Below, in pieces: positions 37,540 to 64,000 of a stretch of DNA of 64,000 nt. Position numbers and translations under genes: made by a program. The notes under the pieces are model-generated. The model saw only the letters and a list, made by a program, of their open reading frames with translations. It was not told the origin of the DNA and searched no databases. Positions within the stretch are counted from its first letter, which is position 1. Every line of letters begins with the position of its first letter. Source of the stretch: Symbiodinium sp. CCMP2592 (taxonomy: Eukaryota > Sar > Dinophyceae > Suessiales > Symbiodiniaceae); contig CAJNDT010002791.1 of assembly GCA_905221615.1 (NCBI GenBank), positions 372,001-436,000 on the forward strand. Reading direction: 5' to 3'.

Positions 37540-37925
37540 TGTGGGGTGTGGGGTTCCTCTTCCCCCGGTGGGGTGGTTGTGGGGTTTGGGGTTTAGCTTA
37601 AGCTTTTGAGTGTTGGGTTTACGGCTACAAGGTATAAGGATTCGAGTCGACAAGGGCTTAGGGAGGATTTGCGGTGTATGCTCCGCTTTAGGCTTAGAGC
37701 CTGCAGTTAGGTGGGGTTTAGGGTTGGGCAGGGGTTGGGTGTAGTTTTAAGTACAAGTTAAGGCTGCTCAAAACAAGGGCGCGCGCTGCGTTATAGGGTT
37801 TACGGCTTGCTTGCGAAGGGCTTGCGCGTGAGCCCTGGCCGCCAGCACCACCCCGCCATCCAGTGGCAGCTCCGCACACGCCAGCCCCCCCCCCCCCGTG
37901 GCCGGCTTAAATAGGGTTTATTTGG
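37540..37925 (+). repeat. Degenerate telomere-like GGGTTTAG motifs
   Basis: Scattered GGGGTTTGGGGTTTAG (near 37575), GTGGGGTTTAGGGTTGGG (near 37710), TATAGGGTTTACGG (near 37793) and AATAGGGTTTA (near 37910) resemble the TTTAGGG telomere unit but are not in a regular array. Confidence 0.45.
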
Positions 37926-38205
37926 AAGCTGTCACTCGGGTTTTGGAGTAGTCACAGGCTCTCCAAGGAAGCCCCAGCCCCGGCTCCAGTCCTGGCCCCA
38001 GGCTCGGCCCCAGTCCCGACACCAGTCTCACAGGGAGGGGCGCAAATTCGTGGATGACTTTGTAATCTTCACTACAACCTGCGTATAATACATGGATAGG
38101 CAACTCGCTTCCAGACGACCCATGTATCCGACTTGGCCGGTGAGAGAGCACTATTCCATGCATCATGTCGGCTCACACGAAAAAAAACCACCCGGAATAC
38201 GAAAC

Positions 38206-38808: not shown

Positions 38809-41800
38809 CTACACCTCCTTGGACCGGCGACCGGGGCGAATCACCGGACTGAGGTTCCTCAGTCGAAACGGTGTTCGCCGGGTTGGCTTGCTTCGCGGCA
38901 AGCGCGGAGCCTTCGGCTTGCTGCTGGAAGCACGAGCCTCGGGCAAGGAAGCAGTCGCTTTGTCTCGAAGTGCGACACGGACACGTCGTCCTTGCTTCAA
39001 AACATGCAGAGCAGCTCTTGCCGGCGTGGCACCGGGAGCCTTAAGCTGCCGACACCACGTCCGCCAGGCAGCTTGCGGTAGCATGAAACGAACATTAGCT
39101 TTCATTGCCCGTGATGCTATCTCGGACTGATCTGCTTGCCTCTGGAGAGGCCTGTACAAGGCCTGATTGTGCGTGAACAGTTTCACAAAGTGAAACAAAT
39201 TCAGCTTCATCCCGAAAGTGGATTTGTGCAAAGCCGCCTCGGGGTGATTAGCAGACACAGGAAGCATGCCCTGCGTCGGAAAGGCACATGTTCGTTGCAG
39301 CCGAGCAGCAGTCTCTCGGAACCAATGATTGATCTCGTGATGGAGACTTTCATTGGATGTGGTGCCGCTTGGTAGGAGCGTTAGTTCACCTGGATGTACG
39401 GCATGTCGGTGGCGAGTATCGTTGAACAACCACTGGACCTTGACTGCGGACGCCACGTTGATGATGAGGCGATGCAGCGAAGCACCAGAGTAAGTAGTTT
39501 TACTGACCTCGTCAGCGAACAGCGACAGATGGGCCACGCATGCTTCGAGGAAGTCAATCTCCGTCAGCCACGGCGTGTCTGGATTCAACTTCTCCAGCAA
39601 GTTGTGCGCCTGAGCGTGTGACATGTCCGGTTTCTCCAGTCGGAGTCGCATGCAGCGAACGTCCACACTGGCAGGTGGCAGCGACTGCCCAGTGTAGAAC
39701 GGTCCCCAGGCTGCTGCTGTGCGGGCCGCATCTCGCTTGCGGAACTTGTCCATGATGACGGCGAGCCACCGACTGCCATGAGTTTTCTTGTTACTCATGT
39801 TCTGCTGGTACACCATGATAATATGCATGGCGTCCAGGGCAATGCTCTCCAGATGGGGCAACACTTGTCTGAGGACGCGGAACATCTCCGGTGACGGATT
39901 ATCAGAAGCCACATGCTGCACCTGGGTCCTCTGCTGAAGAGAAAGCTCGTTTGCCAAGGCATCGGCGATGACACTAGCCTTCTCGGAGCGAACCATGGCA
40001 ACCAAAAGAGCGGCGCCAGTTCGACCTCGGCAGGTCAAGGTGCGATACGCAGCCTCGGCTTCTGGAATGGCAGCATCATCCCGCAGTGATTGCGAGGAGT
40101 GGAAATTTGCCTGGCCGATGATTTTGAGATTCACCTTGAAGGTCGCATCAATGCTGAGGTAGCGAAACTCATTATGGTCACGACACTCTTGAAGCAGGGC
40201 ATCACGGTACTTCAGGACAGGCGGGGCATTCATCAAGTCCTCGAATACGTTGATCCAGAATGAATTCGTTGACCGCGGAAGCAAAGAGGAGAGTTCACCA
40301 TCGTGGCGCTTGCAGCACCGCAGAAAGGAGCAACAGATTTTATGCAGCGAGCCGTTCGCTGCTGCTGCGGCTTCCAAAAATGCACACGCAAAGGCATGCG
40401 TGTAGTAAAGGTTGCCGACGCGTCTCAAGTCATGCCTCTTTTTGATGGTATGCAAGGCCATGATGATGGGACCGTCCTTGTCAAACACGTACCTCACGAA
40501 GCTGTCGATCTCGACGACCTTCGTGGGCACGGGAGGTTTGACATCCAAGCGCATGACAGCTGCGGCTCTGCTAAGAAAGTACGGCTGCATCTCCTTCCCC
40601 TTGATCGCGTCCTGGTCATACATCGACACGGCAATTCTCAGTTGCTTGGTGCCGGAGGGGCAGTAGCGCTTGGCTGTCGTGTGTTGGGAGGTGAGATGCT
40701 GCCGCAGGTGTGCGCGCTTGCTAAAACGGCGCCACGGGCAGCACGGACATGTGGTTGTGGAGAAGGTCGTGCTGGCCTGGCAGTTGACATTGTCCAGAGC
40801 TTCCTCAATCTCGCGCTTCATGAAATTCAGCAGCTCGCCACCGACATCGACTTCCCCTTCGTTCCGAGGGCCCTGTCCTTGCACCGCGTCTGCTTGTGCC
40901 GCAGGTCGCTTCTTGGACGTCCCCCCAGAAGACGACCCTGCAAGCAGGTCGAGAAAGCCGGACGTGCCATCATCTAGTTCTGGCGACTTTGAGACTGCGT
41001 CGAAGCAAAAAGTCTCCTTCAGCCCGTGGAAGGCTTCCAGTAGGTCCATCAGATCGAACATGGAGCCTTCGAAGACGCGGCCACCGCGCATAAGCCCGAT
41101 CATGTTATTAGGGAGCATCTTGACACCCATGCAGATGGAGGACTCCGGAAGTTCGAGATGAAGAAGGAAGTCGGAGGCAGCCTCAGTCGTGAAAGCGGAT
41201 CGCGGCACCAGGTGGAGGTCGCCGCAGCCATTCCAGTCGGAGTACTGCCGAAGGTGACGAGTCTCGGCTTTGGTGTTGGCCGGAGACTCCTCCCGCAGAC
41301 GCAGAATGATTTGCTTCACGTCCGCACCCAAGAAAACCATTGCGGCAGGAATAGAATTGGAAACAGCCGTCAAGGTTTCTTCATACATGCGCAATTGGGA
41401 GCTGACCTGACTTGGCTTCAATCTGCTGTCCAGCAGCGTATCCAAAGATGGAACGGTCTTGTCCTTCAGCACAACCTTGAAGTTCGTATTCTTTAGCACA
41501 GTCTCTTCAAGAAGAAAAACCATGTTTTTGCCGGTAGTTTCTTCCAGTGACTGCACCAAGGATCTTGCCACGAGAATGCCGTCGAAGTGACACGAAACAT
41601 GTTCTGCGGCCTCGCCTTGCCGAACGAAACAAGTCATCGACTGGAGGATTAGGTCTTCGGCGGCAGTCCACCAGAGGGCGAATATGCTTGCTTCTGGCCA
41701 CTGAGTCCTGGAACCGCGACGCAACTGCAGGTAGTGACTTTGCAGTTGCGAGCAAGCGAGCCAGCGCAGACGGCGGCTTTCAGTCGAAAGTGCTGTCAAA

Positions 41801-43189
41801 AATGCCAGGCCTTGCTTTGGGATGTCCTTGAAGTTCGACGGCATCGCTCCATTGGCGACCTCCGTGAGAATCTTCTTGCCGACCGATTCGGTGCACTTCA
41901 GCTGATCACTGCAAACACGGCTGCGATTCGTGGCAATGGCACGCCATGAGGGAATTTCCAGGCCTGTCGGCTGTACCATGTCGCATAGTTGGACGACGAT
42001 GTTGAACATGGCTGAGGCGATGTCGTAGTCAGCTGTCTGAGGGCAGCAGATGGCTCGTGTGAGTCGAGACATACTCTGAGCACCGACTTCTGTGACATAT
42101 CGGCGGCAGCGGATGTCCCGGGGATAGAAGTACTGACGCTGTACTTTCACATATAGATTCTCGTCTGTTGAATCCGCCTCCTGAGCCGCCTCCAGCACCT
42201 CCCGATGCAAGGATGTCTGTCTGTCTAATGCCTGGATAAGGTCCTCCCAGATGCTGGAATCGGCAGCATCGACGTCTGCGTTTCGCTTGGGAGCTCCTTT
42301 CTTTTTGTTGGGCTGCTGCGCCGCATCTTTCTTCTTGTAATTCTCAGCGAGCGTCCTGATGTTCAAACTTCGCGAGGAGTCTGCTGCCAGGCGAGAGCGA
42401 ACGCCGGACACATGGTATGCCTCTATGAAGGTCATCTCTGTGTCATGAACCAGAGACACCACCGCGTCAAGTGACTTCTCGCAGAAGTAGACCGGCAGGT
42501 AAAGAGTCGTCTGGCCAACCTTAGGCAGAACTGTAGGTGCAGCTACAAGTCGGCCGCTCGCCAGCATCTTGTCGATCACCTGCTGGGCATCACAGCGGTT
42601 GAAATTGAAGACGAACTTGGCCTTGGCACTTTTCAGCTGTGCAGCGGTGAACCAGTCTTTACGCTCTGCGACCAGCCAGTCCCGCAATTGACTAACGGAT
42701 TCCTCTTGCTCCGCTTTGTGCTTGGCGACGGTGGCCTGGACGGCGGCTGCCTGCACCTCCGCAGCCTTGACCTCTGCAGAAGGCTCTGCGACAGCAGACG
42801 CGGCTGCTTTCTTGGAAAGGGCGTCCAAGACCTCACGCACAGGGTCGGCATCCGGAGTTTCATTTGGCGTTAAGCCACAGCTGCGCCGGACGGTCGCCAG
42901 CGTCAAGCCGCAGTCCCCGCCACGGACAACGTACTTCTCCAGGACATCGCGGCATTGCTCCGCTGTCCGATTCCTGGCATAGTTCCACACGCACCGCAGT
43001 GTTACCAGGCAAGCCGGGTTGTCCCGTAGGAAATCTTTGAGTGTGGGGTCCCGGGGGAAAATTCCGTGCGACGCCGCCAGCTCCTCTCTTCCTGCGATGC
43101 GAGCAGGATCGACGAAGCTGCTTTTGTAGGCACAGACCGCTGTTCTTCTGAGAATAGAGTTGATGGTCTCATCGGTGACACCGCCGAAC
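38809..43189 (-). CDS. C2H2 finger plus DDE transposase exon, with helicase C-terminus, copy A
   Basis: The exon opens right after an intron acceptor (GCGAG|G) and first encodes the C-terminal part of the helicase (FGGVTDETINSILRR, then GIFPRDPTLKDFLRDNPACL), running without a break into the transposase. The longest start-to-stop frame begins only at a GTG at 42990 (1,393 codons), which is internal. In that numbering a basic/winged-helix-like region covers about 110-190. A C2H2 finger (CPCCPWRRFSKRAHLRQHL plus TSQH) sits at 747-769. The DDE-type core has D948 (LSIDATFK), D1030 (VASDNPS), a further D1053 with His (ALDAMHI) and E1214 (TTSNESLHHEIN). Spacing and the D-x2-H element recall the MULE/ISL3-like transposase class. 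A basic tail ends the protein. It is intact in this copy. Confidence 0.75.
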
Positions 43190-43292
43190 CTCGCCGGATC
43201 AGATAGAAGACAACGAAAGAGTTACACAAACCTCATGCTACAACTGCAACGTAAACACTCCGAATCAATATCATGTATATTTGACGAGCAAC

Positions 43293-45152
43293 TTTGGTGC
43301 TGTGTTGAGTTCGAAGCGTTTCCAGCCGCGCAACTCGACCAATGCCGTGTGGATGGCATAAGGCAAACGTTCCGGCACTTTGTCGGCAGAGATATGTTTC
43401 TTGTATATGTCCTCTCTCATGGAGCGCCGACTGCCTTGCACACTTTCCTGCCCCGTGACAACGATCTTGCCAACAATGTTCGCCGCCTGTTTCCGCATCT
43501 CCTGTCCAGCTAGAATCTAGTAGGCTGATGTATCCTAGTGTTATGCAACGGTCTACACAACCGACTTCCGTTTTCCGTAAGAATACCAGCAGTTGTTCAC
43601 TCACTGGCCTCGTCCACAAAGTAGATGTTCATGTCCAGGCAAGTGTGGTACTCTCCGAGGATCGCCTCCAAATGTGCCGTCTGTAGGCTCTGTCCGACTC
43701 CACCGGAACCGATGCCCCAGAATGCACGGTCTACATTTTCGCCACGCAGAGCTAGTACGAAGGAAGCCATGAAGACCTGGAATGCTTCCGCGTTGGCCCA
43801 GTATGTGGTCTTCCAGAAGAGCTCGACTCGTTTCTTGACATCCTCTGCAACGGGATCCAGCATTCTGTGTGGCAGGTAGACGTACATGTTGTTGCGTGGT
43901 GTCTTGCGAACTGGATGCAAGCCGTCTGCGGTGAATGCGAAGGCTGCATCGGTCGTGCAGAAACCTCCCGCTGGCTTGACGTCCTGAGAACACCACGCGA
44001 TGTAGTACTTGATGATGCTGTCATTGAGGAGAGAAGTCTGCCTCAGAGTTCGGACTGAGAAACTTTTAGAAGCTGCAAAATAAGATTACGAGTCTGCATC
44101 CAGTAATGCTTATTTACTGAAGTGTTTCGGAAACAAGCAGCAATTTGACGTACAGCTTGCCGATGGTGTTGGCCATGGCCACTGTCCAATGGACCTTGTC
44201 ATCGCCCGGATCTTGAACGTCGTCGACCTCCCCCGGATTGCTTCCTTTGGACTTCGGGGGCATACGGCAGATGGCAGCCTTCTCGCACGCAGTCAGAAGG
44301 ATGTCGGATTGGAGCGAGTGTCTCTCCAATAGTTCTTGGGAAGCCTTTAAAATTCCATCGTGATCCCGGAAGACATTCCCGTGAAAGGACGCATAAAGGC
44401 CCTCCAGCTGGACGAGAAACTTCTTGCATCGTGCCAGTGTGCCCTCGGGAATGACGCCCTTGTAGGCGTTCCAGTGCCCGTGCTCCGAATAGAAGAAGCA
44501 CTGCCCACCATGGGCTCGGACGTGTCTCCCAGACCCCTCAACAAGCTCGAGAAACAAAACTTCCTCTCGCCGACTGACATCGAGGAGTCGTAAGCGATGT
44601 ACGGCCAGTGCTCCTTGGACCACGTGTCTGAAGGTGGAGGACCACGAAGAACTGGGGCCATAGTCTGCAATAGTGCGTTCCAGCTCACTCACTTCACGAA
44701 GAATGCAGCCTTCGGTAGCCGGAATGTCAGACGCCGCTGACTCAGCAGGAACGGAGGAGATGTCAAAATCCGTCTGCATGATTTGACTCAAGGTGCTCTC
44801 CAAAGCGTCCGTCCCAGCGGGCTCTTCGGCTTCCATGAGCCCAGCCCCACCGGCATCCGGAGCTCTGGCATCGGCGCTGTCCGCTGTTCTCTGTCGCTTT
44901 GGACCTGGCTCGGCCGCGCCGTCTGCCTCTGCGGGCGCAGGTAGATCTGCATAAGTGTCCATCTCCTGTTCCAGCATTTGTGAGAATGACGGGTTTTGGG
45001 AGTCTGGAGGCTGGCTGCCGCCGCGAAGATCTTCCCGAGTCGAGGAAGTCAGCCGCACACAAGACCTCAGATCATCTCGCCGCCAAGACATGAGTCTGTC
45101 AGCCCGATTTCTGAGAATAGAGTTGATGGTCTCATCGGTGACACCGCCGAAC
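43293..45152 (-). CDS. D5-like superfamily 3 primase-helicase domain, complete copy, copy A
   Basis: Three exons (45152-44118, 44062-43609, 43501-43293) encode the domain. The first carries an N-terminal Pro/Glu-rich linker and a region with GSGRHVRAHGGQCFFYSEHG. The second has TLRQTSLLNDSIIKYYIAWC, then the P-loop-like GIGSGGVGQS and the Walker B-like IYFVDE. The third has IVVTGQE, YKKHISADKVPERLPYA and GWKRFELN, followed after the last intron by FGGVTDETINSILRR in the transposase exon. This order is that of D5-type viral and mobile-element helicases. The expected Walker A lysine is Gln (GVGQS). The first exon also contains the downstream junction of an internal tandem duplication: NSILRN passes straight into RADRLMSWRRDD. 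The exons stay in frame throughout. Confidence 0.65.
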
Positions 45153-45255
45153 CTCGCCGGATCAGATAGAAGACAACGAAAGAGTTACACAAACCTCATG
45201 CTACAACTGCAACGTAAACACTCCGAGTCAATATCATGTATATTTGACGAGCAAC

Positions 45256-45464
45256 TTTGGTGCTGTGTTGAGTTCGAAGCGTTTCCAGCCGCGCAACTCG
45301 ACCAATGCCGTCTGGATGGCATAAGGCAAACGTTCCGGCACTTTGTTGGCAGAAATATGTTTCTTGTATATGTCCTCTCTCCTGGAGCGCCGACTGCCTT
45401 GCACACTTTCCTGCCCCGTGACAACGATCTTGTCAACAAGGTTCGCCGCCTGTTTCCGCATCTC
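45256..45464 (-). CDS. Helicase C-terminal exon of the shortened duplicate, copy A
   Basis: This is the counterpart of 43501-43293 with the same IVVTGQE and GWKRFELN landmarks and a few changes (KHISANKVPERLPYAIQTAL against KHISADKVPERLPYAIHTAL). It is flanked by the same intron borders and can splice in frame between 45572 and 45152. It probably adds a second, N-terminally truncated helicase unit to the product. Confidence 0.55.
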
Positions 45465-45571
45465 CTGTCCAGCTAGAACCTAGTAGGCTGATGTATCCTA
45501 GTGTTATGCAACGGTCTACACAACCGACTTCCGTTTTCCTTAAGAATACCAGCAGTTGTTCACTCACTGGC

Positions 45572-48500
45572 CTCGTCCACAAAGTAGATGTTCATGTCCA
45601 GGCAAGCGTGGTACTCTCCGAGGATCGCCTCCAAATGTGCCGTCTGTAGGCTCTGTCCGACTCCGCCGGAACCGATGCCCCAGAATGCACGGTCTACATT
45701 TTCGCCACGCGGAGCTAGTACGAAGGAAGCCATGAAGACCTGGACTGCTTCCGCGTTGGCCCAGTATGTGGTCTTCCAGAAGAGCTCGACTCGTTTCCTG
45801 ACATCCTCTGCAACGGGATCCAGCATTCTGCGTGGCAGGTAGACGTACATGTTGTTGCGTGCCACTTCACGAAGAATGCAGCCTTCGGTAGCCGGAACGT
45901 CAGACGCCGCTGACTCAGCAGGAACGGAGGGGATATCAAAATCCGTCTGCATGATCTGACTGAAGGTGCTCTCCAAAGCGTCCGTCCCAGCGGGCTCTTC
46001 GGCTTCCATGAGCCTAGCCCCACCGGCGTCCAGAGCTCTGACATCGGCGCCGTCCGCTGTTTTCTGTCGCTCTGGACCTGGCTCGGCCACGCCGTCTGCC
46101 TCTGCGGGCGCAGGTAGATCTGCATAAGTGTCCATCTCCTGTTCCATCATTTGTGACAATGACGGGTTTTGGGAGTCTGGAGGCTGGCTGCCGCCGCGAA
46201 GATCTTCCCGAGTCGAGGAAGTCAGCCGCACACAAGACCTCAGATCATCTCGCCGCCAAGACATGAGTCTGTCAACCCGATCCGAGAGGATGGGTACGGG
46301 AATGACCAAGGACTCAAACCCGTTGTCTGGGTGAAGACACACAATTCGCAGGTCCGTTGCAGCTACATCGTAGTATTGTCGAAGGATCCAAGCGTAGATG
46401 TTGAGCTGAATGCGGTAGTGCCAGACCACGGAGTCCTCTGTGTCCTCGAGTGGAAAGTGCAGTTTGCGACCAAAGCTGCAATCCTTGGACGCCAGCTGCT
46501 TCGTCCGCTTCCAGTCCAGAAGACAGATCTCCGAGCCACGCTTCGCCACAGCGTCGATGGAGCCGGCCAGATCCTCAGCCTCCGCGTAGATGGTCCACTC
46601 CGTTCGATAAATGGTCCATCCCTCTGAGGTGAAGGCACGCAGAAACTTCAGAAAAGTGCACATCTCTGTTGACTGCAAGGGTACACTGCCGCCATTCAGC
46701 AAGCACTCGCAAAGAGCATGTGTCCAGGTTCCCTGCGACGCGGCCTTCCTGCGATTGTTGTCCCACATGCCCAGAATCTGCGTGTCTGTCAAAGTAACGA
46801 TCTCCGCTAGATGACGATACCCAGGATGTGTCCACACGAGGTTCCGAAGTCGGCAGCAGATGGCTTCGACATCCACGTCGGAGGATTCCACTAGATGAGA
46901 CAGCACCGCGTCCGCGGGTCCCTCCGCTCGCAAGGCTCGTCGAAGTTCCGAGACAGCGTTCGTAGACAGATAGTCGGCACGTGGCCAATTGCGACCGCCG
47001 CGCATGGCTCGCACGGCTTCCACAGCGTTGAAGCTCCGGGCAAGCTTGTGAATAAGACCCGTCACAGACATAGAAACCTTCCGGCCCCGCCAGGTGTATG
47101 TGTGATCCGCCTCGCGAAACTCCAAATGCGTGTCCCGCGGGTGCGTGTGCACAATGGCCAAAATATCCAGAATTTCCAGTCCTTCAAGACGTTCCACATT
47201 GAAAGAAGACGGACTTGCTGCGCAAATAGAGCGGGGACCAGTCCACTGCCTTAGACTTATCGGCAGGAAAGTGTCCAGCCCGAAGTCAAGCAAGGAGCCG
47301 GTGCCGGTCGGCCGGTCCATGTGTGTTGCCACTGAGAAGAAAACACTGTCACCCAGCTGGCCACGCGCTTCCTGGACTCGCTGCATCAAATGGACATCTG
47401 ATACAGCCTCCTGAGCTTCCATGGCCTGTTGCTCATTGGAGAAGATCATTGAGAGCCTGTCTTCGACATCGACCAGACGATGGCAGAGTTGTTCGAATCT
47501 GAGCTCATCTCCTTGGAAACACAGATACTGTTTGCGCAGTGCCTGTAGACGGCGTTTCTCGATCTGCAAGCGGACGGCCGAGGTCACCTGCACCGAAGTC
47601 CCACCGAGACGGTCTTCGAGATAGTATTCGGGAGCACATGCCAGACAGAGATCTGCGTTCGCGATTCCATGGTTCTGACAGAACCAATATTCGCACTCAC
47701 TGCAGCAGGCCAGGCTTTCACAGGCACAGTACGCACATCCCGGATATCCGAACGACGTCATGTACTTGAATGGGAGAGCTTCGACTTGAAAGCTTTCTAT
47801 CTGAGCACTGGAAGGTGTAATGCAGACTGCGGCACTTCTTACCCAAGGCTCGATGCTCTGCTCCGCAGTCAGAAGGATGGTCGCGATGTCATGACCGTCC
47901 ACAGCGAACTCCAGGAAGTTGCTGTCCCAGTGAAATGCGAAGGTGTGCCCTGAGTTCCTTCCCTCCTTCAGATGCTGCGGCATGGGGATGGCAACCCGTT
48001 CGCCATTGGCCAGGCGGAATTGCATCTCCCCTGTTGCAGTAAAGGGTCTCCGAAGCACCATGCACGTGCTGCTTTCTGGGGTACTACGGAAGTTTGAGCG
48101 TCGCAATGCCAAGACCAGAAAGTTCGTATCCCATGGCAGCCGCACACGCATGGAACTTCGATGACAGGTTTGGTGCTCCGACTTCCAGTACACGATGCGT
48201 GTGGAGCTCTGCGGGCTTCCCATAGGAGCGACCAGGCTCGGCATGTGTTCTCCTTGTCCGTGTAGCCAGAGTTTCGTCCCGAGAGACGACAGAGCATGAA
48301 GTACGGAAGGAGAGCAGGAGACTGTCCTGATGCCTTCTTCCCACGCTTGCAAAAGGTTACCAAAGAAGGCAGATTGGCAGAAACTAGCACGAAGCCGCAC
48401 TTTCAATTCCAGATCCACGTCATGCCAAAAGCGGCCTTGCTGAACGCACTCCCTGAGTTGCGTGCTGCAGCTAGCCAGACACAGAAAGTCCTGGAGGCTT

Positions 48501-49878
48501 CCGAGGAATGACACCGGCGGAGGAGACACGCTCAACCAGTCTGTCGTTCCACCACGCAGGTCCAGCGCTGACAGAAAGGCTTTAGTGCCGAGCTCCGTCG
48601 GCAGAAAGCAGCTGTTGCTCGGGTTGTGATGATCGTCTGCCGAATTCTCTTCGCCGAACATGGACACCGTCACATGCGCCCATTGCTCCACATCGCAGTC
48701 CTGCAGGGATAGCATCCCATGACGGTGTCCGTCGAGGAAAACTTCCAGCCTGTGATTGTACCACTGTACCTGCAACAGGCGGTCGGCCGTGCACTGTGGG
48801 ATGCTAGTGAGGAATTTATCGCTCGGGCGACCAAGGCGACTGTGCCCCAATTCAGTCATCACAGTTTCGGCAAAGGGCGCCCCCATGTCACACCAACAGC
48901 GATCCCCGATGGGGGAGCAGCCTCCAATTGAAACCACAACACGCCGTGGCTGGTCGGTGCTGCTTAGGCGGAAGTAGACCAGCGATAGTACGGGCTGCAG
49001 CATGCTCCACTTCCGGATGAGTGAGCCGCAGACCTTCTTCGCCGTGACGTGCACTGGCCATTCCACAGCCACGATGCGAGAACCGCCGATTGCGGCGGCC
49101 AGCAAGGACTTCCGATCCCCCAGCCAGTTCCTGTCCACGGCAGCCGCAGGCAGGACGCCCGCGTGTCTATCGAGCCAGACGTCCGAAGACGTAACCAGGT
49201 CGCGTGTCTCGCGGCAGGCACGCTCGAAGTGCACGGCCGTGCGAAGATCTCCTAGTCTGCAAACGAGCTCTTTCGAGAGATGCACGGGAAGACCTTGCAA
49301 GCTCCCACCAGATAAGTCCGATCCGCCGCCCAAGCTGTCCTGAATGACGAAGACTCCGGTGCACTCGGTCGGATCAATGACCCAGACAGCCATCTCGTTG
49401 CAGTAGACAAGCGGGGAGTGTGTGCGGTGCGTGCACGCTTTCTTCCATGCGTGTCGCTTATTACTTTGGTTGACTTCCAGCACACCTTCTTTCTTCCTCA
49501 GGGCGACGAAGTGCTCTCCGATGGTCAACACAAACTGGCCATCTGCGACCGCCGAGATCTGCCTCCATGTTGTGCGAGCGACTGCTTTCCTTACAATGCA
49601 TTTGCATGGACTACGCCTGCTTACAGGTGCGTGAACGAGCTGCACAACATCTGTCTGTCCAGCGGCCCGAACGGCTCCAGAAAGGTGCTGCCGTCTCGGA
49701 TCGCCCAGAAAGGGCCGTCGCTCGCATACTCCAGCTTGTAGCCGTGGGCACGCAACGTGTCGATGAGGCACACGTCCTTGAACTTCTCTTCCCCGCCTGG
49801 TCGGCAGGTGGGACACGACTGCTCTCTTGAGTTTCTCGTCTTTTTGTGTAACAAGGGAAAGCTTCTGCCGAGTGACAC
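45572..49878 (-). CDS. PD-(D/E)XK nuclease with F-box-like and jelly-roll-like modules, fused to a truncated helicase, copy A
   Basis: Exon 1 (49878-49625; KFKDVCLIDTLRAHGYKLEY) is joined by a 62-bp GT-AG intron to a 3,991-nt exon from 49562. Residue numbers use the uninterrupted frame from 49936. An F-box-like segment (ELVCRLGDLRTAVHFERACR) is followed by a jelly-roll-like module (LEVFLDGHRHG). A second pair is FLGSLQDFLCLASCSTQLRE and LEFAVDGHD. A Cys/His-rich finger lies at about 731-769 (CAYCACESLACCSECEYWFC). The nuclease core has H1073 (GTWTHAL), D1128 (LAGSIDAV), D1141-x-K1143 (LLDWKRTK) and Q1177 (QLNIYAW), the RecB/Cas4-like arrangement. The exon ends in the shortened helicase unit with GSGGVGQS and FVDE. 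The F-box and jelly-roll labels are pattern-based; the nuclease is firmer. Confidence 0.7.
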
Positions 49879-49936
49879 GTCGACGGAGCGTCGTATCGGT
49901 GCGACTTCTTCCTCGTGACCATACCTCTAGTTTCAT

Positions 49937-50430
49937 GGACGAAGCCAGAATTCTATGCCTGTTTTTTTTTCAGATAAGATTCTCGATCGATGCTTGGCTC
50001 GTCGCCAGCGCAGTGCCAGCACATTTCGTGTCAGAGACTTCGGACATGAGTCCTCCTGCCATGCAAGATTTGTTGGATGCATGCTTGCTTGATGCTTGCA
50101 GACTGCACATGCAGCACGTGTTCATGCTGCCTCCGCTGCCAAAAGCTGGGCACTGCTTGGGCGTACCTCGTCGACAGGTGCAGACAAACATTCGGCTTGG
50201 AAACTCAGTTACTGACATAAGCAACAAGGACATGAGAATCCTGCGCTCCGCTATCATGTTTGGCCTGCTTCTGGCAGCATCCAATGCTCGTCCCTCGGCC
50301 AGTGACTGACACGATATCAGACGGAGAAACAGGAGTCAAACGGCAGCCACTGCGGCAGAGAAGCAGTTGTAGGTGCGCTCCCCCTGATGCTTCCTTGTCA
50401 CGAAGCGGTTCCCTAATCCAGAATTAGATG
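49937..50430. other. Upstream of the giant gene, nothing recognised
   Basis: A 160-codon + strand open frame here has no motif. The upstream exon(s), start codon or promoter of the - strand gene may lie in this stretch but cannot be identified. Confidence 0.35.
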
Positions 50431-51520
50431 AAGGTTCGAAATACAACACGACTATGCCACCACTGTTTCTCTGCTGCTTACATCCTTGCAGAGGCAGTGA
50501 CGTCTGCTCAGCAGAAATGTCACCGGCCGGATCAGCGGCCATGTTCCTTAGTCAACAATTGGCCTTACAGCCGGCGTGAGGTACAACCGTGTCTCCAATC
50601 TTCGCCTACTGCCTGAACGTTTTCAAAAGCAGTCGCGACTGCTCAGCCGCGACGTCCTCGGTCGGATCAGCGGCCAACTTCCTTAGTCAGCGCGGCGTGC
50701 AGCTTGTGGCATGACTGTGTCCCCGACGTGTGTCTACTGTCTGCATCTTTGCAAAAGCAGCGACGATGTGTTCGCAGTAATATCATCGGCTGGACACCCA
50801 GCCTTGCTCCTCGGTCAAAATTTGGACTTGCAGTCGGCGTGCGGTATAACCGCGTCTCCAATCTTCGCCTACTGCCTGCACGTTTTCAAAACCAGTCACG
50901 ACTGCTCAGCCGCGACGTCCTCGGTTGGATCAGCGGCCGGCTTCCTTGGTCAGCGCGGCGTGCAGCTTGTGGCATGACCCTGTCCCTGACGTGTGTCTAC
51001 TGTCTACATCTTTGCAAGAGCAGTGACGATGGGCTCGCAGTAACATCATCGGCTGGACACCCAGCCTTGCTCCTTGGTCAAGATTTGGATTTGCAGCCGG
51101 CATGTAGAACAACTGGGGTGCTAGTATTCACATATTGTCCGCATAATTGCGAAGATAGTGACGTCTGCTCATCGGCCAAGTCCTTGGCCAGATCAGTGGC
51201 CTGCTCCCTTAGTTAGCAAGTGGATCTGCAGCCGTCGTGCAGCACGGCGCACAGCCGCGTCTCCCGTCATCCTCTACTGACTGCATCTTTGCGGAGGCAG
51301 TGACGACTGCTCAGCTTCAACATCCTCCGCCGGGCCAGCGACCTCGTTCCTTGGCCAGGAATTCGAGCTTCTCCCAACATGCACCCCAACTACGTCTCCA
51401 AACTTTGCATATTGTCTGCATCTTATGTGCAAAGGCAGGGACGACTGGTCAACAGCAATGTCCTCGGCCGGACTTGCGGCCTTGGACCTGCAGACTGTTC
51501 GAGTGGGTCTGACAGTACGA
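50430..51520. repeat. Diverged ~134-bp tandem array with ~262-bp higher order
   Basis: The anchor CAGTGACG(A/T)CTGCTCAGC or its variants recurs near 50504, 50639, 50766, 50902, 51028, 51165, 51307 and 51445, so spacing is 126-142 bp. Units alternate: 50639 resembles 50902 and 50766 resembles 51028, giving a dimer of about 262 bp. Other shared phrases are CTCGGCCGGATCAGCGGCC and GGACTTGCAGTCGGCGTGC. Unit length is not a multiple of three and the open frames are not conserved, so it is not a repeated protein. Confidence 0.85.
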
Positions 51521-54422: not shown

Positions 54423-54682
54423 GAATGCAGCAGCACGACTAACAACTCATGCATGCAAGCGTCCTCGCCTTCGCGATTGCGACGAAAACGATCGCAGAGT
54501 CGGCGGCGTATCCTGACGGCAGTGCCGGACATGTGTTTCGAAGCGCTTGTTCGGAGAATCTTTGGTTCATAACTCAGTGTGCAGCATCGCATGAGTGTTG
54601 TAGCATGTTGCATATAACAAGTCGCGACAAGGCTGTTACAGATAACAAAGCCCCCGTCAGTGCTATACAATATTATGCTGAA

Positions 54683-54955
54683 GGGTGAGATGCAGATGAT
54701 GAAGATGATGAAGATGATGAAGATGATGAAGATGAAAAAGATGATGAAGATGAAAAAGATGATGAAGATGAAAAAGATGATGAAGATGAAGAAGATGATG
54801 AAGATGAAGAAGATGATGAAGATGAAGAAGATGATGAAGATGATGAAGATGAAGAAGATGATGGAGATGAAGAAGATGATGAAGATGAAGAAGATGAAGA
54901 AGATGATGAAGATGATGAAGATGATGAAGATGATGAAGATGATAAAGATGATTTA
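54683..54955. repeat. GATGAA/GATGAAGAA microsatellite
   Basis: About 270 bp of GATGAAGAT-type repeats encode nothing meaningful; the Lys/Met open frame here is an artefact. Confidence 0.95.
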
Positions 54956-55719
54956 AATAATTTAGATCCTGAAGGGGAGGGGTCCCCGGGGGTCCAGGGC
55001 CCCGGGAATTAAATAATTTAAATAATTTAAATCCGGAGCCCTTCCCCAGGATTTAAATTATTTAAATTATGTAAATCCTGGGGCCCGGGGCCCCCGGGAA
55101 CCCCCCGGCCAGGATTTAGATTATTTAAATTATTTAAATTATTTAAATGGGGCCGGGAATTAAATAATTTAAATAATTTAAATCCTGAAGGGGAGGGGTC
55201 CCCGGGGGTCCAGGGCCCCGGGAATTAAATAATTTAAATAATTTAAATCCGGAGCCCTTCCCCAGATTTAAATTATTTAAATTATTTAAATCCTGGGGCC
55301 CGGGGCCCCCGGGAACCCCCCCGGCCAGGATTTAAATTATTTAACTTATTTAAATTATTTAAATTATTTAAATGGGGCCGGGAATTAAATAATTTAAATA
55401 ATTTAAATAATTTAAATAATTTAAATAATTTAAATCCTGAAGGTGAGGGGTCCCCGGGGGTCCAGGGCCCCGGGAATTAAATAATTTAAATAATTTAAAT
55501 CCGGAGCCCTTCCCCAGGATTTAAATTATTTAAATTATTTAAATCCTGGGGCCCGGGGCCCCCGGGAACCCCCCCGGCCAGGATTTAAATTATTTAAATT
55601 ATTTAAATTATTTAAATGGGGCCGGGAATTAAATAATTTAAATAATTTAAAAAATTTAAATAATTTAAATCCTGAAGGGGAGGGGTCCCCGGGGGTCCAG
55701 GGCCCCGGGAATTAAATTA
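54956..55719. repeat. Satellite alternating pure AT and pure GC blocks
   Basis: Units of about 216, 252 and 235 bp (CCTGAAG at 54968, 55184, 55436 and 55671) alternate TTTAAATAATTTAAAT palindromes with GC-only blocks such as GGGGCCCGGGGCCCCCGGGA. The assembly gap falls inside the fourth unit. Confidence 0.95.
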
Positions 55720-55819
55720 NNNNNNNNNNNNNNNNNNNNNNNNNNNNNNNNNNNNNNNNNNNNNNNNNNNNNNNNNNNNNNNNNNNNNNNNNNNNNNNNN
55801 NNNNNNNNNNNNNNNNNNN
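55720..55819. other. Assembly gap of 100 N
   Basis: Exactly 100 N, probably a placeholder of unknown true length. An open frame drawn across it into the satellite has no meaning. Confidence 0.99.
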
Positions 55820-57592
55820 TTCAATCTGCTGTCCAGCAGCGTATCCAAAGATGGAACGGTCTTGTCCTTCAGCACAACCTTGAAGTTCGTATTCTTTAGC
55901 ACAGCCTCTTCAAGAAGAAAAACCATGTTTTTGCCGGTAGTTTCTTCCAGTGACTGCACCAAGGATCTTGCCACGAGAATGCCGTCGAAGTGACACGAAA
56001 CATGTTCTGCGGCCTCGCCTTGCCGAACGAAACAAGTCATCGACTGGAGGATTAGGTCTTCGGCGGCAGTCCACCAGAGGGCGAATATGCTTGCTTCTGG
56101 CCACTGAGTCCTGGAACCGCGACGCAACTGCAGGTAGTGACTTTGCAGTTGCGAGCAAGCGAGCCAGCGCAGACGGCGGCTTTCAGTCGAAAGTGCTGTC
56201 AAAAATGCCAGGCCTTGCTTTGGGATGTCCTTGAAGTTCGACGGCATCGCTCCATTGGCGACCTCCGTGAGAATCTTCTTGCCGACCGATTCGGTGCACT
56301 TCAGCTGATCACTGCAAACACGGCTGCGATTCGTGGCAATGGCACGCCATGAGGGAATTTCCAGGCCTGTCGGCTGTACCATGTCGCATAGTTGGACGAC
56401 GATGTTGAACATGGCTGAGGCGATGTCGTAGTCAGCTGTCTGAGGGCAGCAGATGGCTCGTGTGAGTCGAGACATACTCTGAGCACCGACTTCTGTGACA
56501 TATCGGCGGCAGCGGATGTCCCGGGGATAGAAGTACTGACGCTGTACTTTCACATATAGATTCTCGTCTGTTGAATCCGCCTCCTGAGCCGCCTCCAGCA
56601 CCTCCCGATGCAAGGATGTCTGTCTGTCTAATGCCTGGATAAGGTCCTCCCAGATGCTGGAATCGGCAGCATCGACGTCTGCGTTTCGCTTGGGAGCTCC
56701 TTTCTTTTTGTTGGGCTGCTGCGCCGCATCTTTCTTCTTGTAATTCTCAGCGAGCGTCCTGATGTTCAAACTTCGCGAGGAGTCTGCTGCCAGGCGAGAG
56801 CGAACGCCGGACACATGGTATGCCTCTATGAAGGTCATCTCTGTGTCATGAACCAGAGACACCACCGCGTCAAGTGACTTCTCGCAGAAGTAGACCGGCA
56901 GGTAAAGAGTCGTCTGGCCAACCTTAGGCAGAACTGTAGGTGCAGCTACAAGTCGGCCGCTCGCCAGCATCTTGTCGATCACCTGCTGGGCATCACAGCG
57001 GTTGAAATTGAAGACGAACTTGGCCTTGGCACTTTTCAGCTGTGCAGCGGTGAACCAGTCTTTACGCTCTGCGACCAGCCAGTCCCGCAATTGACTAACG
57101 GATTCCTCTTGCTCCGCTTTGTGCTTGGCGACGGTGGCCTGGACGGCGGCTGCCTGCACCTCCGCAGCCTTGACCTCTGCAGAAGGCTCTGCGACAGCAG
57201 ACGCGGCTGCTTTCTTGGAAAGGGCGTCCAAGACCTCACGCACAGGGTCGGCATCCGGAGTTTCATTTGGCGTTAAGCCACAGCTGCGCCGGACGGTCGC
57301 CAGCGTCAAGCCGCAGTCCCCGCCACGGACAACGTACTTCTCCAGGACATCGCGGCATTGCTCCGCTGTCCGATTCCTGGCATAGTTCCACACGCACCGC
57401 AGTGTTACCAGGCAAGCCGGGTTGTCCCGTAGGAAATCTTTGAGTGTGGGGTCCCGGGGGAAAATTCCGTGCGACGCCGCCAGCTCCTCTCTTCCTGCGA
57501 TGCGAGCAGGATCGACGAAGCTGCTTTTGTAGGCACAGACCGCTGTTCTTCTGAGAATAGAGTTGATGGTCTCATCGGTGACACCGCCGAAC
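55820..57592 (-). CDS. Transposase exon, copy B, cut by the assembly gap
   Basis: Counterpart of 41417-43189: helicase C-terminus, then the first ~525 residues of the frame starting at the internal GTG (57393). The C2H2 finger and the DDE core would lie in or beyond the gap and are not seen. One amino-acid difference from copy A was noted (EEAVLKN against EETVLKN). Confidence 0.7.
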
Positions 57593-57695
57593 CTCGCCGG
57601 ATCAGATAGAAGACAACGAAAGAGTTACACAAACCTCATGCTACAACTGCAACGTAAACACTCCGAATCAATATCATGTATATTTGACGAGCAAC

Positions 57696-59555
57696 TTTGG
57701 TGCTGTGTTGAGTTCGAAGCGTTTCCAGCCGCGCAACTCGACCAATGCCGTGTGGATGGCATAAGGCAAACGTTCCGGCACTTTGTCGGCAGAGATATGT
57801 TTCTTGTATATGTCCTCTCTCATGGAGCGCCGACTGCCTTGCACACTTTCCTGCCCCGTGACAACGATCTTGCCAACAATGTTCGCCGCCTGTTTCCGCA
57901 TCTCCTGTCCAGCTAGAATCTAGTAGGCTGATGTATCCTAGTGTTATGCAACGGTCTACACAACCGACTTCCGTTTTCCGTAAGAATACCAGCAGTTGTT
58001 CACTCACTGGCCTCGTCCACAAAGTAGATGTTCATGTCCAGGCAAGTGTGGTACTCTCCGAGGATCGCCTCCAAATGTGCCGTCTGTAGGCTCTGTCCGA
58101 CTCCACCGGAACCGATGCCCCAGAATGCACGGTCTACATTTTCGCCACGCAGAGCTAGTACGAAGGAAGCCATGAAGACCTGGAATGCTTCCGCGTTGGC
58201 CCAGTATGTGGTCTTCCAGAAGAGCTCGACTCGTTTCTTGACATCCTCTGCAACGGGATCCAGCATTCTGTGTGGCAGGTAGACGTACATGTTGTTGCGT
58301 GGTGTCTTGCGAACTGGATGCAAGCCGTCTGCGGTGAATGCGAAGGCTGCATCGGTCGTGCAGAAACCTCCCGCTGGCTTGACGTCCTGAGAACACCACG
58401 CGATGTAGTACTTGATGATGCTGTCATTGAGGAGAGAAGTCTGCCTCAAAGTTCGGACTGAGAAACTTTTAGAAGCTGCAAAATAAGATTACGAGTCTGC
58501 ATCCAGTAATGCTTATTTACTGAAGTGTTTCGGAAACAAGCAGCAATTTGACGTACAGCTTGCCGATGGTGTTGGCCATGGCCACTGTCCAATGGACCTT
58601 GTCATCGCCCGGATCTTGAACGTCGTCGACCTCCCCCGGATTGCTTCCTTTGGACTTCGGGGGCATACGGCAGATGGCAGCCTTCTCGCACGCAGTCAGA
58701 AGGATGTCGGATTGGAGCGAGTGTCTCTCCAATAGTTCTTGGGAAGCCTTTAAAATTCCATCGTGATCCCGGAAGACATTCCCGTGAAAGGACGCATAAA
58801 GGCCCTCCAGCTGGACGAGAAACTTCTTGCATCGTGCCAGTGTGCCCTCGGGAATGACGCCCTTGTAGGCGTTCCAGTGCCCGTGCTCCGAATAGAAGAA
58901 GCACTGCCCACCATGGGCTCGGACGTGTCTCCCAGACCCCTCAACAAGCTCGAGAAACAAAACTTCCTCTCGCCGACTGACATCGAGGAGTCGTAAGCGA
59001 TGTACGGCCAGTGCTCCTTGGACCACGTGTCTGAAGGTGGAGGACCACGAAGAACTGGGGCCATAGTCTGCAATAGTGCGTTCCAGCTCACTCACTTCAC
59101 GAAGAATGCAGCCTTCGGTAGCCGGAATGTCAGACGCCGCTGACTCAGCAGGAACGGAGGAGATGTCAAAATCCGTCTGCATGATTTGACTCAAGGTGCT
59201 CTCCAAAGCGTCCGTCCCAGCGGGCTCTTCGGCTTCCATGAGCCCAGCCCCACCGGCATCCGGAGCTCTGGCATCGGCGCCGTCCGCTGTTCTCTGTCGC
59301 TTTGGACCTGGCTCGGCCGCGCCGTCTGCCTCTGCGGGCGCAGGTAGATCTGCATAAGTGTCCATCTCCTGTTCCAGCATTTGTGAGAATGACGGGTTTT
59401 GGGAGTCTGGAGGCTGGCTGCCGCCGCGAAGATCTTCCCGAGTCGAGGAAGTCAGCCGCACACAAGACCTCAGATCATCTCGCCGCCAAGACATGAGTCT
59501 GTCAACCCGATTTCTGAGAATAGAGTTGATGGTCTCATCGGTGACACCGCCGAAC
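57696..59555 (-). CDS. D5-like helicase domain, complete unit, copy B
   Basis: Exons 59555-58521, 58465-58012 and 57904-57696 match copy A, with the same GVGQS P-loop variant, FVDE and GWKRFELN. The change at 58449 (copy A 44046) is silent (Leu to Leu). The linker reads TADGADAR where copy A has TADSADAR. Confidence 0.65.
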
Positions 59556-59974
59556 CTCGCCGGATCAGATAGAAGACAACGAAAGAGTTACACAAACCTC
59601 ATGCTACAACTGCAACGTAAACACTCCGAGTCAATATCATGTATATTTGACGAGCAACTTTGGTGCTGTGTTGAGTTCGAAGCGTTTCCAGCCGCGCAAC
59701 TCGACCAATGCCGTCTGGATGGCATAAGGCAAACGTTCCGGCACTTTGTTGGCAGAAATATGTTTCTTGTATATGTCCTCTCTCCTGGAGCGCCGACTGC
59801 CTTGCACACTTTCCTGCCCCGTGACAACGATCTTGTCAACAATGTTCGCCGCCTGTTTCCGCATCTCCTGTCCAGCTAGAACCTAGTAGGCTGATGTATC
59901 CTAGTGTTATGCAACGGTCTACACAACCGACTTCCGTTTTCCTTAAGAATACCAGCAGTTGTTCACTCACTGGC

Positions 59975-62900
59975 CTCGTCCACAAAGTAGATGTTCATGT
60001 CCAGGCAAGCGTGGTACTCTCCGAGGATCGCCTCCAAATGTGCCGTCTGTAGGCTCTGTCCGACTCCGCCGGAACCGATGCCCCAGAATGCACGGTCTAC
60101 ATTTTCGCCACGCGGAGCTAGTACGAAGGAAGCCATGAAGACCTGGACTGCTTCCGCGTTGGCCCAGTATGTGGTCTTCCAGAAGAGCTCGACTCGTTTC
60201 CTGACATCCTCTGCAACGGGATCCAGCATTCTGCGTGGCAGGTAGACGTACATGTTGTTGCGTGCCACTTCACGAAGAATGCAGCCTTCGGTAGCCGGAA
60301 CGTCAGACGCCGCTGACTCAGCAGGAACGGAGGGGATATCAAAATCCGTCTGCATGATCTGACTGAAGGTGCTCTCCAAAGCGTCCGTCCCAGCGGGCTC
60401 TTCGGCTTCCATGAGCCTAGCCCCACCGGCGTCCAGAGCTCTGACATCGGCGCCGTCCGCTGTTTTCTGTCGCTCTGGACCTGGCTCGGCCACGCCGTCT
60501 GCCTCTGCGGGCGCAGGTAGATCTGCATAAGTGTCCATCTCCTGTTCCATCATTTGTGACAATGACGGGTTTTGGGAGTCTGGAGGCTGGCTGCCGCCGC
60601 GAAGATCTTCCCGAGTCGAGGAAGTCAGCCGCACACAAGACCTCAGATCATCTCGCCGCCAAGACATGAGTCTGTCAACCCGATCCGAGAGGATGGGTAC
60701 GGGAATGACCAAGGACTCAAACCCGTTGTCTGGGTGAAGACACACAATTCGCAGGTCCGTTGCAGCTACATCGTAGTATTGTCGAAGGATCCAAGCGTAG
60801 ATGTTGAGCTGAATGCGGTAGTGCCAGACCACGGAGTCCTCTGTGTCCTCGAGTGGAAAGTGCAGTTTGCGACCAAAGCTGCAATCCTTGGACGCCAGCT
60901 GCTTCGTCCGCTTCCAGTCCAGAAGACAGATCTCCGAGCCACGCTTCGCCACAGCGTCGATGGAGCCGGCCAGATCCTCAGCCTCCGCGTAGATGGTCCA
61001 CTCCGTTCGATAAATGGTCCATCCCTCTGAGGTGAAGGCACGCAGAAACTTCAGAAAAGTGCACATCTCTGTTGACTGCAAGGGTACACTGCCGCCATTC
61101 AGCAAGCACTCGCAAAGAGCATGTGTCCAGGTTCCCTGCGACGCGGCCTTCCTGCGATTGTTGTCCCACATGCCCAGAATCTGCGTGTCTGTCAAAGTAA
61201 CGATCTCCGCTAGATGACGATACCCAGGATGTGTCCACACGAGGTTCCGAAGTCGGCAGCAGATGGCTTCGACATCCACGTCGGAGGATTCCACTAGATG
61301 AGACAGCACCGCGTCCGCGGGTCCCTCCGCTCGCAAGGCTCGTCGAAGTTCCGAGACAGCGTTCGTAGACAGATAGTCGGCACGTGGCCAATTGCGACCG
61401 CCGCGCATGGCTCGCACGGCTTCCACAGCGTTGAAGCTCCGGGCAAGCTTGTGAATAAGACCCGTCACAGACATAGAAACCTTCCGGCCCCGCCAGGTGT
61501 ATGTGTGATCCGCCTCGCGAAACTCCAAATGCGTGTCCCGCGGGTGCGTGTGCACAATGGCCAAAATATCCAGAATTTCCAGTCCTTCAAGACGTTCCAC
61601 ATTGAAAGAAGACGGACTTGCTGCGCAAATAGAGCGGGGACCAGTCCACTGCCTTAGACTTATCGGCAGGAAAGTGTCCAGCCCGAAGTCAAGCAAGGAG
61701 CCGGTGCCGGTCGGCCGGTCCATCTGTGTTGCCACTGAGAAGAAAACACTGTCACCCAGCTGGCCACGCGCTTCCTGGACTCGCTGCATCAAATGGACAT
61801 CTGATACAGCCTCCTGAGCTTCCATGGCCTGTTGCTCATTGGAGAAGATCATTGAGAGCCTGTCTTCGACATCGACCAGACGATGGCAGAGTTGTTCGAA
61901 TCTGAGCTCATCTCCTTGGAAACACAGATACTGTTTGCGCAGTGCCTGTAGACGGCGTTTCTCGATCTGCAAGCGGACGGCCGAGGTCACCTGCACCGAA
62001 GTCCCACCGAGACGGTCTTCGAGATAGTATTCGGGAGCACATGCCAGACAGAGATCTGCGTTCGCGATTCCATGGTTCTGACAGAACCAATATTCGCACT
62101 CACTGCAGCAGGCCAGGCTTTCACAGGCACAGTACGCACATCCCGGATATCCGAACGACGTCATGTACTTGAATGGGAGAGCTTCGACTTGAAAGCTTTC
62201 TATCTGAGCACTGGAAGGTGTAATGCAGACTGCGGCACTTCTTACCCAAGGCTCGATGCTCTGCTCCGCAGTCAGAAGGATGGTCGCGATGTCATGACCG
62301 TCCACAGCGAACTCCAGGAAGTTGCTGTCCCAGTGAAATGCGAAGGTGTGCCCTGAGTTCCTTCCCTCCTTCAGATGCTGCGGCATGGGGATGGCAACCC
62401 GTTCGCCATTGGCCAGGCGGAATTGCATCTCCCCTGTTGCAGTAAAGGGTCTCCGAAGCACCATGCACGTGCTGCTTTCTGGGGTACTACGGAAGTTTGA
62501 GCGTCGCAATGCCAAGACCAGAAAGTTCGTATCCCATGGCAGCCGCACACGCATGGAACTTCGATGACAGGTTTGGTGCTCCGACTTCCAGTACACGATG
62601 CGTGTGGAGCTCTGCGGGCTTCCCATAGGAGCGACCAGGCTCGGCATGTGTTCTCCTTGTCCGTGTAGCCAGAGTTTCGTCCCGAGAGACGACAGAGCAT
62701 GAAGTACGGAAGGAGAGCAGGAGACTGTCCTGATGCCTTCTTCCCACGCTTGCAAAAGGTTACCAAAGAAGGCAGATTGGCAGAAACTAGCACGAAGCCG
62801 CACTTTCAATTCCAGATCCACGTCATGCCAAAAGCGGCCTTGCTGAACGCACTCCCTGAGTTGCGTGCTGCAGCTAGCCAGACACAGAAAGTCCTGGAGG

Positions 62901-63965
62901 CTTCCGAGGAATGACACCGGCGGAGGAGACACGCTCAACCAGTCTGTCGTTCCACCACGCAGGTCCAGCGCTGACAGAAAGGCTTTAGTGCCGAGCTCCG
63001 TCGGCAGAAAGCAGCTGTTGCTCGGGTTGTGATGATCGTCTGCCGAATTCTCTTCGCCGAACATGGACACCGTCACATGCGCCCATTGCTCCACATCGCA
63101 GTCCTGCAGGGATAGCATCCCATGACGGTGTCCGTCGAGGAAAACTTCCAGCCTGTGATTGTACCACTGTACCTGCAACAGGCGGTCGGCCGTGCACTGT
63201 GGGATGCTAGTGAGGAATTTATCGCTCGGGCGACCAAGGCGACTGTGCCCCAATTCAGTCATCACAGTTTCGGCAAAGGGCGCCCCCATGTCACACCAAC
63301 AGCGATCCCCGATGGGGGAGCAGCCTCCAATTGAAACCACAACACGCCGTGGCTGGTCGGTGCTGCTTAGGCGGAAGTAGACCAGCGATAGTACGGGCTG
63401 CAGCATGCTCCACTTCCGGATGAGTGAGCCGCAGACCTTCTTCGCCGTGACGTGCACTGGCCATTCCACAGCCACGATGCGAGAACCGCCGATTGCGGCG
63501 GCCAGCAAGGACTTCCGATCCCCCAGCCAGTTCCTGTCCACGGCAGCCGCAGGCAGGACGCCCGCGTGTCTATCGAGCCAGACGTCCGAAGACGTAACCA
63601 GGTCGCGTGTCTCGCGGCAGGCACGCTCGAAGTGCACGGCCGTGCGAAGATCTCCTAGTCTGCAAACGAGCTCTTTCGAGAGATGCACGGGAAGACCTTG
63701 CAAGCTCCCACCAGATAAGTCCGATCCGCCGCCCAAGCTGTCCTGAATGACGAAGACTCCGGTGCACTCGGTCGGATCAATGACCCAGACAGCCATCTCG
63801 TTGCAGTAGACAAGCGGGGAGTGTGTGCGGTGCGTGCACGCTTTCTTCCATGCGTGTCGCTTATTACTTTGGTTGACTTCCAGCACACCTTCTTTCTTCC
63901 TCAGGGCGACGAAGTGCTCTCCGATGGTCAACACAAACTGGCCATCTGCGACCGCCGAGATCTGC
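59975..63965 (-). CDS. PD-(D/E)XK nuclease exon with truncated helicase, copy B
   Basis: Counterpart of the 3,991-nt exon 49562-45572. All nuclease residues seen in copy A are present (GTWTHAL, LAGSIDAV, LLDWKRTK, QLNIYAW). One difference was noted (VATQMDRP against VATHMDRP). The window ends in the preceding intron, so exon 1 of this copy is not visible. The next exon downstream, 59867-59659, again carries the shortened-unit helicase C-terminus. Confidence 0.7.
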
Positions 63966-64000
63966 CTCCATGTTGTGCGAGCGACTGCTTTCCTTACAAT

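Follow-up and report, generated by a model that had tools for sequence, protein, structure and literature searches.

A terminal inverted repeat transposon of Symbiodinium whose predicted polyprotein joins a probable Mutator/IS256-type transposase to a putative virus-like replication module

The window studied here is a stretch of 64,000 nucleotides from contig C2791 (CAJNDT010002791.1) in the 1.1-Gb genome of the coral-symbiont alga Symbiodinium sp. CCMP2592, a strain that appears as S. tridacnidorum CCMP2592, with a hybrid assembly, in PMC8045281. We found that a giant gene on its minus strand (38809..49878) belongs to a DNA transposon with terminal inverted repeats (TIRs), an identification for which the evidence is strong. 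The best explanation, to which we assign a probability of roughly 0.55, is an autonomous element of ∼18.9 kb that carries one recognised gene, encodes a polyprotein and moves by copy-out into G/C tracts. The polyprotein would run from a protease-like N-terminus through a nuclease, a D5N/SF3 helicase-like region with a duplicated core, a family-A polymerase, an OTU-like segment and a C2H2 finger to a Mutator/IS256-type DDE transposase. We read the element as a Mutator/IS256-type TIR transposon joined to a virus-like replication module. Sequence analysis and structure models provide the coding frame, the nuclease, the polymerase and DDE folds, the termini, near-identical copies, flanks of G/C runs, some with duplications of 9–12 bp, and relatives that have hardly more than the termini in common.

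Results

The gene was modelled with seven exons and encodes 3,495 amino acids (aa) from a putative start codon. Splicing of six introns yields a single frame without internal stops, 10,488 nt long with its terminal stop codon. Introns 1–6 (minus strand; 49563..49624, 45465..45571, 45153..45255, 44042..44141, 43502..43608 and 43190..43292) measure 62, 107, 103, 100, 107 and 103 nt and use the donors GT, GC, GT, GC, GC and GT, each with an AG/G acceptor. The original prediction, made from the letters of the window, had proposed one in-frame product via six introns, with AG acceptors throughout and either GT or GC as donor; this architecture holds, but its sizes (10,533 nt, ∼3,510 aa, introns of 55–107 nt against 62–107 nt here) differ from ours, so that some of the splice choices must differ as well. 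It had overlooked the ends of the element, the polymerase and the duplication inside the gene. Two long minus-strand frames make up most of the gene: 49969-45563 (1469 aa) contains the nuclease and the beginning of the helicase core, and the intronless frame 43221-38812 (1470 aa) contains the helicase end, the polymerase, the zinc finger and the DDE domain. Each of them alone is a multi-domain fusion whose domains no intron interrupts, and short exons bridge the two. As the helicase cores themselves are interrupted by introns 2, 3, 5 and 6, with intron 4 directly preceding the second core, both halves of the gene belong together. By-eye reading showed that introns 4–6 are spliced as in the annotated protein P0001, with which P0008 agrees for introns 5 and 6; intron 1 is spanned by a single alignment with the relative P0028 (29% identity, E 2e-20).

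The exons were scanned with Pfam, NCBIfam and PHROGs profiles, among which the nuclease gave the sole clear match; the polymerase was visible by structure only. The RecB/Cas4-type PD-(D/E)XK nuclease (46270..47128, minus strand) carries the motifs GTWTH..E, GSID, LLDWK and QxxxY and matches the PHROGs exonuclease profile phrog_298 at E 8e-20, in agreement with the nuclease originally proposed. A family-A (TV-Pol-like) DNA polymerase fold was located at 41449..42144 (minus strand), with DYDIASAMF as motif A, GKKILTEVANGA in the fingers and HFDG as motif C; its structural matches to family-A polymerases align 185–246 residues, the chains being 539–698 residues long. The first structure model covered a 1,170-aa piece with a predicted local distance difference test score (pLDDT) <50 across most of its first 85 residues, and since the DDE part was weak in this model it was modelled separately. 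The resulting DDE core (39300..40190, minus strand) is modelled with an RNase H fold and has D in SIDATF, D in LDAMH and E in TTSNESLHHE; its closest fold is ISCth4, an IS256-family enzyme. The transposase predicted earlier is supported by the modelled fold; the match to the Pfam profile DDE_Tnp_ISL3 is weak (best E 0.011; 3 of 12 members at E ≤1). The Pfam MULE (Mutator-like element) profile had no match among the proteins scanned, and a sequence search of the PDB with the family profile returned one chance match at E 0.48.

Three further segments lie on the same strand. The conserved N-terminal region (49436..49800), which contains intron 1, has Cys (CLIDTL) and His (HFVAL) motifs and is matched in relatives; by inspection it may be protease-like. 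A candidate OTU-like segment at 40950..41376 has a Cys and a His that are preserved in distant relatives, with Ser replacing the Cys in the window copy. It is followed by a C2H2-like zinc finger (40640..40760; CPCCPWRRF..HL..QH).

The helicase-like region is internally duplicated. Duplicate B (43146..45108, minus strand) comprises a linker, D5N and the full helicase core; duplicate A (45109..46281, minus strand) comprises linker and core, has lost most of D5N in frame and is ∼790 nt shorter. The two are 96–98% identical over their shared parts, and the product contains the Walker A motif twice and the D5N motif once, the frame remaining open despite the ∼790-nt deletion. The length that includes the duplication is kept in all three copies compared by coordinate offset (contigs C5369, C2146 and C2746). 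The apparent lack of the duplication in P0001 is therefore probably due to a shortened gene model. The P4/D5 helicase profile TIGR01613 was matched with a best E of 4.2e-5 (3 of 12 members at E ≤1), the window exon alone giving a weak match (E 0.034 and 13 bits, the curated cut-off being 108.7).

Protein searches yielded 46 relatives, among them proteins named from Symbiodinium, Polarella glacialis, Effrenium voratum and Durusdinium trenchii, headed by a Symbiodinium sp. CCMP2592 product of 99% identity. Many of them are partial, and automatic gene models can err (P0022 continues into RCC1 repeats). For comparisons of domain order and of Walker A, the D5N and helicase queries were taken from P0001; the finger and DDE query pieces share an overlap of 66 residues. 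The order nuclease, D5N, helicase, polymerase, finger region and DDE was complete by BLASTP in 5 of the 46 (P0003, P0022, P0028, P0029 and P0031), the finger itself being absent in P0022 and P0031. Nuclease and DDE domain occur together in nine relatives, which bears out their proposed union; the contrary case, that the two never occur together, was not encountered. P0036, P0038 and P0039 carry, alongside nuclease and D5N, ankyrin-type Pfam accessions that we take to denote ankyrin repeats.

The left TIR lies at 37898..37931 (plus strand; GTGGCCGGCTTAAATAGGGTTTATTTGGAAGCTG), with a boundary common to the copies on C5369, C2146, C2746, C802, C5185 and C102; the first three match the window up to 37898 and diverge beyond. 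A run of 13 C (37885..37897), the target tract, adjoins this end, and C13 also abuts the right end. The window holds the element from 37898 to 64000, and the right TIR follows at C2791:443142-443175 (71142-71175 in window numbering). The TIRs are 34 bp long and identical at 30 of 34 positions in an ungapped count. The assembled end-to-end distance is 33,278 bp, including a false repeat of 14,403 bp that starts at a scaffold gap of 100 N (55720..55819); without it the element measures ∼18.9 kb, and four other end pairs span 18.4–19.1 kb. Within the window, the false second copy (55820..64000) repeats 41417-49597 at 99.93%. A true tandem copy at 55.8–64 kb was rejected, given that the repeat begins at the 100-N gap and the earlier end recurs at 99.3–99.9%. 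The false segmental duplication of 41417-55717 reaches ∼442,132 on C2791, and ∼14.3 kb are double-counted where overlapping contigs were joined.

A genome search with the C-terminal open reading frame (ORF) scored 32 of 425 candidates, and the copy numbers are lower bounds. The 1,470-aa frame is open in at least eight copies including that of the window; in a separate check, seven of ten further loci retain the covered 1,407 aa at 99.5–100% identity, and L017, L018 and L019 do not. Other matches listed were near-identical partial pieces or 26–81% alike. Five relatives (C5162, C2157, C2446, C3113 and C4046) show 58–59% identity and two TGA plus two TAG each within the match, one of them also TAA; these stops may be either introns or marks of an inactive family amplified in trans.

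When the genome was searched for the termini with ≤3 mismatches, we found 98 left and 75 right ends (reversed controls: 0), which form 41 left–right pairs within 60 kb. At least nine of these pairs enclose one of the C-terminal ORF matches listed; the other 32 enclose none of those listed. We compared 23 left ends over the first 1.5 kb: 19 share just 34–77 bp with the window, those on C2434 and C3757 are 98–99.5% alike over 1.5 kb and probably represent internal deletions, and those on C2424 and C231 are diverged relatives. Non-autonomous families that have the termini in common thus coexist with the autonomous element. At C4940:2528973-2546188 (L089-L091) three copies of a relative stand head to tail, 8.6 kb apart and joined by 11–12 G only; such an array could have arisen via circles or tandem replication, or because later copies inserted into the run beside an earlier one.

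The insertion sites were characterized from the left flanks of 30 loci out of the 98 matches and from 22 of the 41 flank pairs. A G or C run of ≥5 ends 29 of the 30 left flanks (17 C, 12 G), compared with 0.2% of window positions that follow such a run; the flanks are partly dependent, as L067 equals L068 and L044, L052, L054 and L057 share at least their last 20 bases. Among the flank pairs, the left run is ≥4 in 21, the right run is ≥4 in 19 and the two runs consist of the same base in 14. Mixed-base duplications of 9, 10, 11, 11 and 12 bp were found in five pairs (with the right boundary of C5185 shifted by 2 bp), for example ACCCCCCCC and GGGGAGCCCCC, which contain non-run letters. Twelve pairs are homopolymeric on both sides, where a duplication length is undefinable, and five (C1249, C4377, C3757, C802 and C2146) have no duplication. 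As a control, 462 mismatched flank pairs agreed in ≥9 mixed bases in 7 cases and in ≥5 bases of any kind in 170. The search for copies, termini and target-site duplications suggested with the original prediction has thus supplied 34-bp TIRs and, in 5 of 22 pairs, duplications of 9–12 bp. The right flanks of C1249 and C704 (L073, L075) look alike, with 19 G followed by TTTAGGG-like repeats that recall telomeric DNA. On C2746 and C5185 (left flanks, L050 and L056), both insertions lie in copies of one repeat, ATATATGCTCTCGGGTCCCGGG, which is followed by a C run.

Other features inside the element are 263-bp tandem repeats (50447..51484), AT-rich palindromic tandem repeats near the right end (54948..55717 and 69343-71031), where the assembly breaks, and an ORF of 318 aa (53466-54422, minus strand) that is of low complexity, has no Pfam match and may be a second gene.

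Discussion

In the copy-out model that we favour, the finger and the transposase would bind and nick the 34-bp ends, and the exposed 3′ ends would be extended by the element's own polymerase, aided by the nuclease and the helicase-like domain. The copy would then be pasted into a poly-G/poly-C tract. Non-autonomous relatives would be moved in trans by the same transposase, and the protease-like domains may cleave the polyprotein. For ISCth4, PMC7780238 describes a figure-eight that becomes a circle via replication and then integrates. The idea of replicative movement gains from the presence of a polymerase fold together with ISCth4 as the nearest fold of the transposase; the ISCth4-type replication step would here be carried out by the element itself.

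Two points weigh against this model. Replicative movement is inferred from sequences and structure models, and neither a transcript nor an intermediate was seen. The mechanism is weakest at the helicase, whose Walker A motif is altered: Gln stands in place of the lysine in all 18 aligned relatives (with P0001 as query; GGVGQS or GGTGQS in 17, GGVKQS in P0031) and in both helicase cores of the window (43600-43920 and 45563-45863). The D5-like helicase of the original prediction has its best profile match at E 4.2e-5; we appear to be dealing with a helicase-like lineage that lacks the usual lysine. Such a domain may serve as a clamp or loader, or alternatively the polymerase may displace strands unaided.

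The degenerate Walker A motif favours the strongest competitor of copy-out, a cut-and-paste Mutator-like element whose polymerase, nuclease and helicase-like domains repair gaps at donor or target. Plant MULEs are thought to move by cut and paste, and TIRs and duplications of 9–12 bp suit the habits of the Mutator superfamily. However, gap filling is normally the work of host enzymes, and the retention of polymerase, nuclease and helicase-like domains in one frame with a transposase across several genera would exceed what it needs; we consider this explanation possible but less probable than copy-out. It is unlikely that the G/C runs were added at the ends during insertion by tailing rather than being the target. 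Their length is variable and an exact duplication is absent in 5 of 22 pairs, but the shared base of left and right run in 14 of 22 pairs and the non-run letters in the five mixed-base duplications speak for a target.

Still less probable is an origin from an integrated virus or a polinton-like relic into which a transposase was recruited. PolA-SF3 helicase fusions are reported in polinton-like viruses (PMC12721341), and the nuclease resembles phage exonuclease profiles. Against this, Pfam gave no match to capsid or packaging proteins in the 14 window ORFs scanned, which do not cover every ORF, and a single scan of viral contigs, based on an alignment of five proteins, produced 35 pattern matches and no relative; non-autonomous families with common TIRs and duplications are transposon traits. 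The same scan and the Walker A Gln also count against part of the original interpretation, which had called nucleases and helicases of these types typical of large DNA viruses and polinton-like elements. Finally, a merger of unrelated neighbour genes by annotation, an error to which automatic models such as P0022 are prone, is hardly credible here, as each half reads through as a single ORF at the DNA level, the helicase core itself is split by introns and proteins with names from several genera show the same domain order.

Copy-out transposition powered by an element-encoded polymerase becomes testable with this element, in a host lineage with large, poorly understood genomes, and its transposase may have strong homopolymer targeting. 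More tentatively, and at somewhat less than even odds, we propose that the element represents a class apart among self-replicating eukaryotic DNA transposons. One polyprotein would combine a copy-out transposase of Mutator/IS256 type with a PolA-type replisome, movement would proceed through element-made circles that home to poly-G/poly-C tracts, and the element, with protein relatives in several genera of dinoflagellates, would drive the non-autonomous families. Our literature search, whose coverage did not extend to Repbase and most subscription papers, found no such element.

Among known systems, the Mutator (MULE)/IS256 superfamily shares the TIRs and the occurrence of relatives that have the termini but not the gene. 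It is also approached by the modelled RNase H fold of the DDE domain, with ISCth4 as its nearest neighbour, and by target duplications, which are ∼8–11 bp in Mutator elements and measure 9–12 bp here in the five pairs out of 22 that show them. In contrast to it, our element has a fused polymerase, helicase-like domain and nuclease, a length of ∼18.9 kb, insertion into G/C runs and no Pfam MULE match. While fold and termini resemble those of Mutator/IS256 elements, the combination of domains may merit a separate class. Casposons share the idea of a self-synthesizing transposon, but they are prokaryotic and use a Cas1-type integrase and PolB. Polintons/Mavericks, the best-known self-replicating eukaryotic transposons, likewise combine their own DNA polymerase with a DDE recombinase. 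Their polymerase and integrase are separate genes, however, and they rely on protein-primed PolB; the element described here has a PolA-type fold and a Mutator/IS256-type DDE domain in one polyprotein, and neither the Polinton RVE integrase nor PolB had a Pfam match in the proteins scanned, the polymerase fold being family A. PMC6431247 gives Polintons a retroviral-like integrase besides protein-primed PolB and a size of 15–25 kb. TV-Pol elements (PMC2579912) have a minimal family-A palm and fingers beside a D5/SF3 helicase, and the PolA-SF3 fusions of virophages and polinton-like viruses (PMC12721341) likewise place the polymerase beside an SF3 helicase. The TV-Pol family is described by a minimal palm and fingers related to superfamily A, conserved aspartates, an arginine hairpin and an RxxxK motif in the fingers; our comparison with this description covered the fold and the aspartates, which agree. 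The helicase is C-terminal in TV-Pol fusions, whereas here it stands before the polymerase and a nuclease forms part of the fusion. The nearest published ideas that our search turned up are the PolA-SF3 fusions of polinton-like viruses and a forecast in the 2019 review PMC6431247 that a nucleic-acid-primed polymerase, a primase and a suitable integrase could yield new, very large elements. The element of Symbiodinium approaches this combination via a different route, within one protein.
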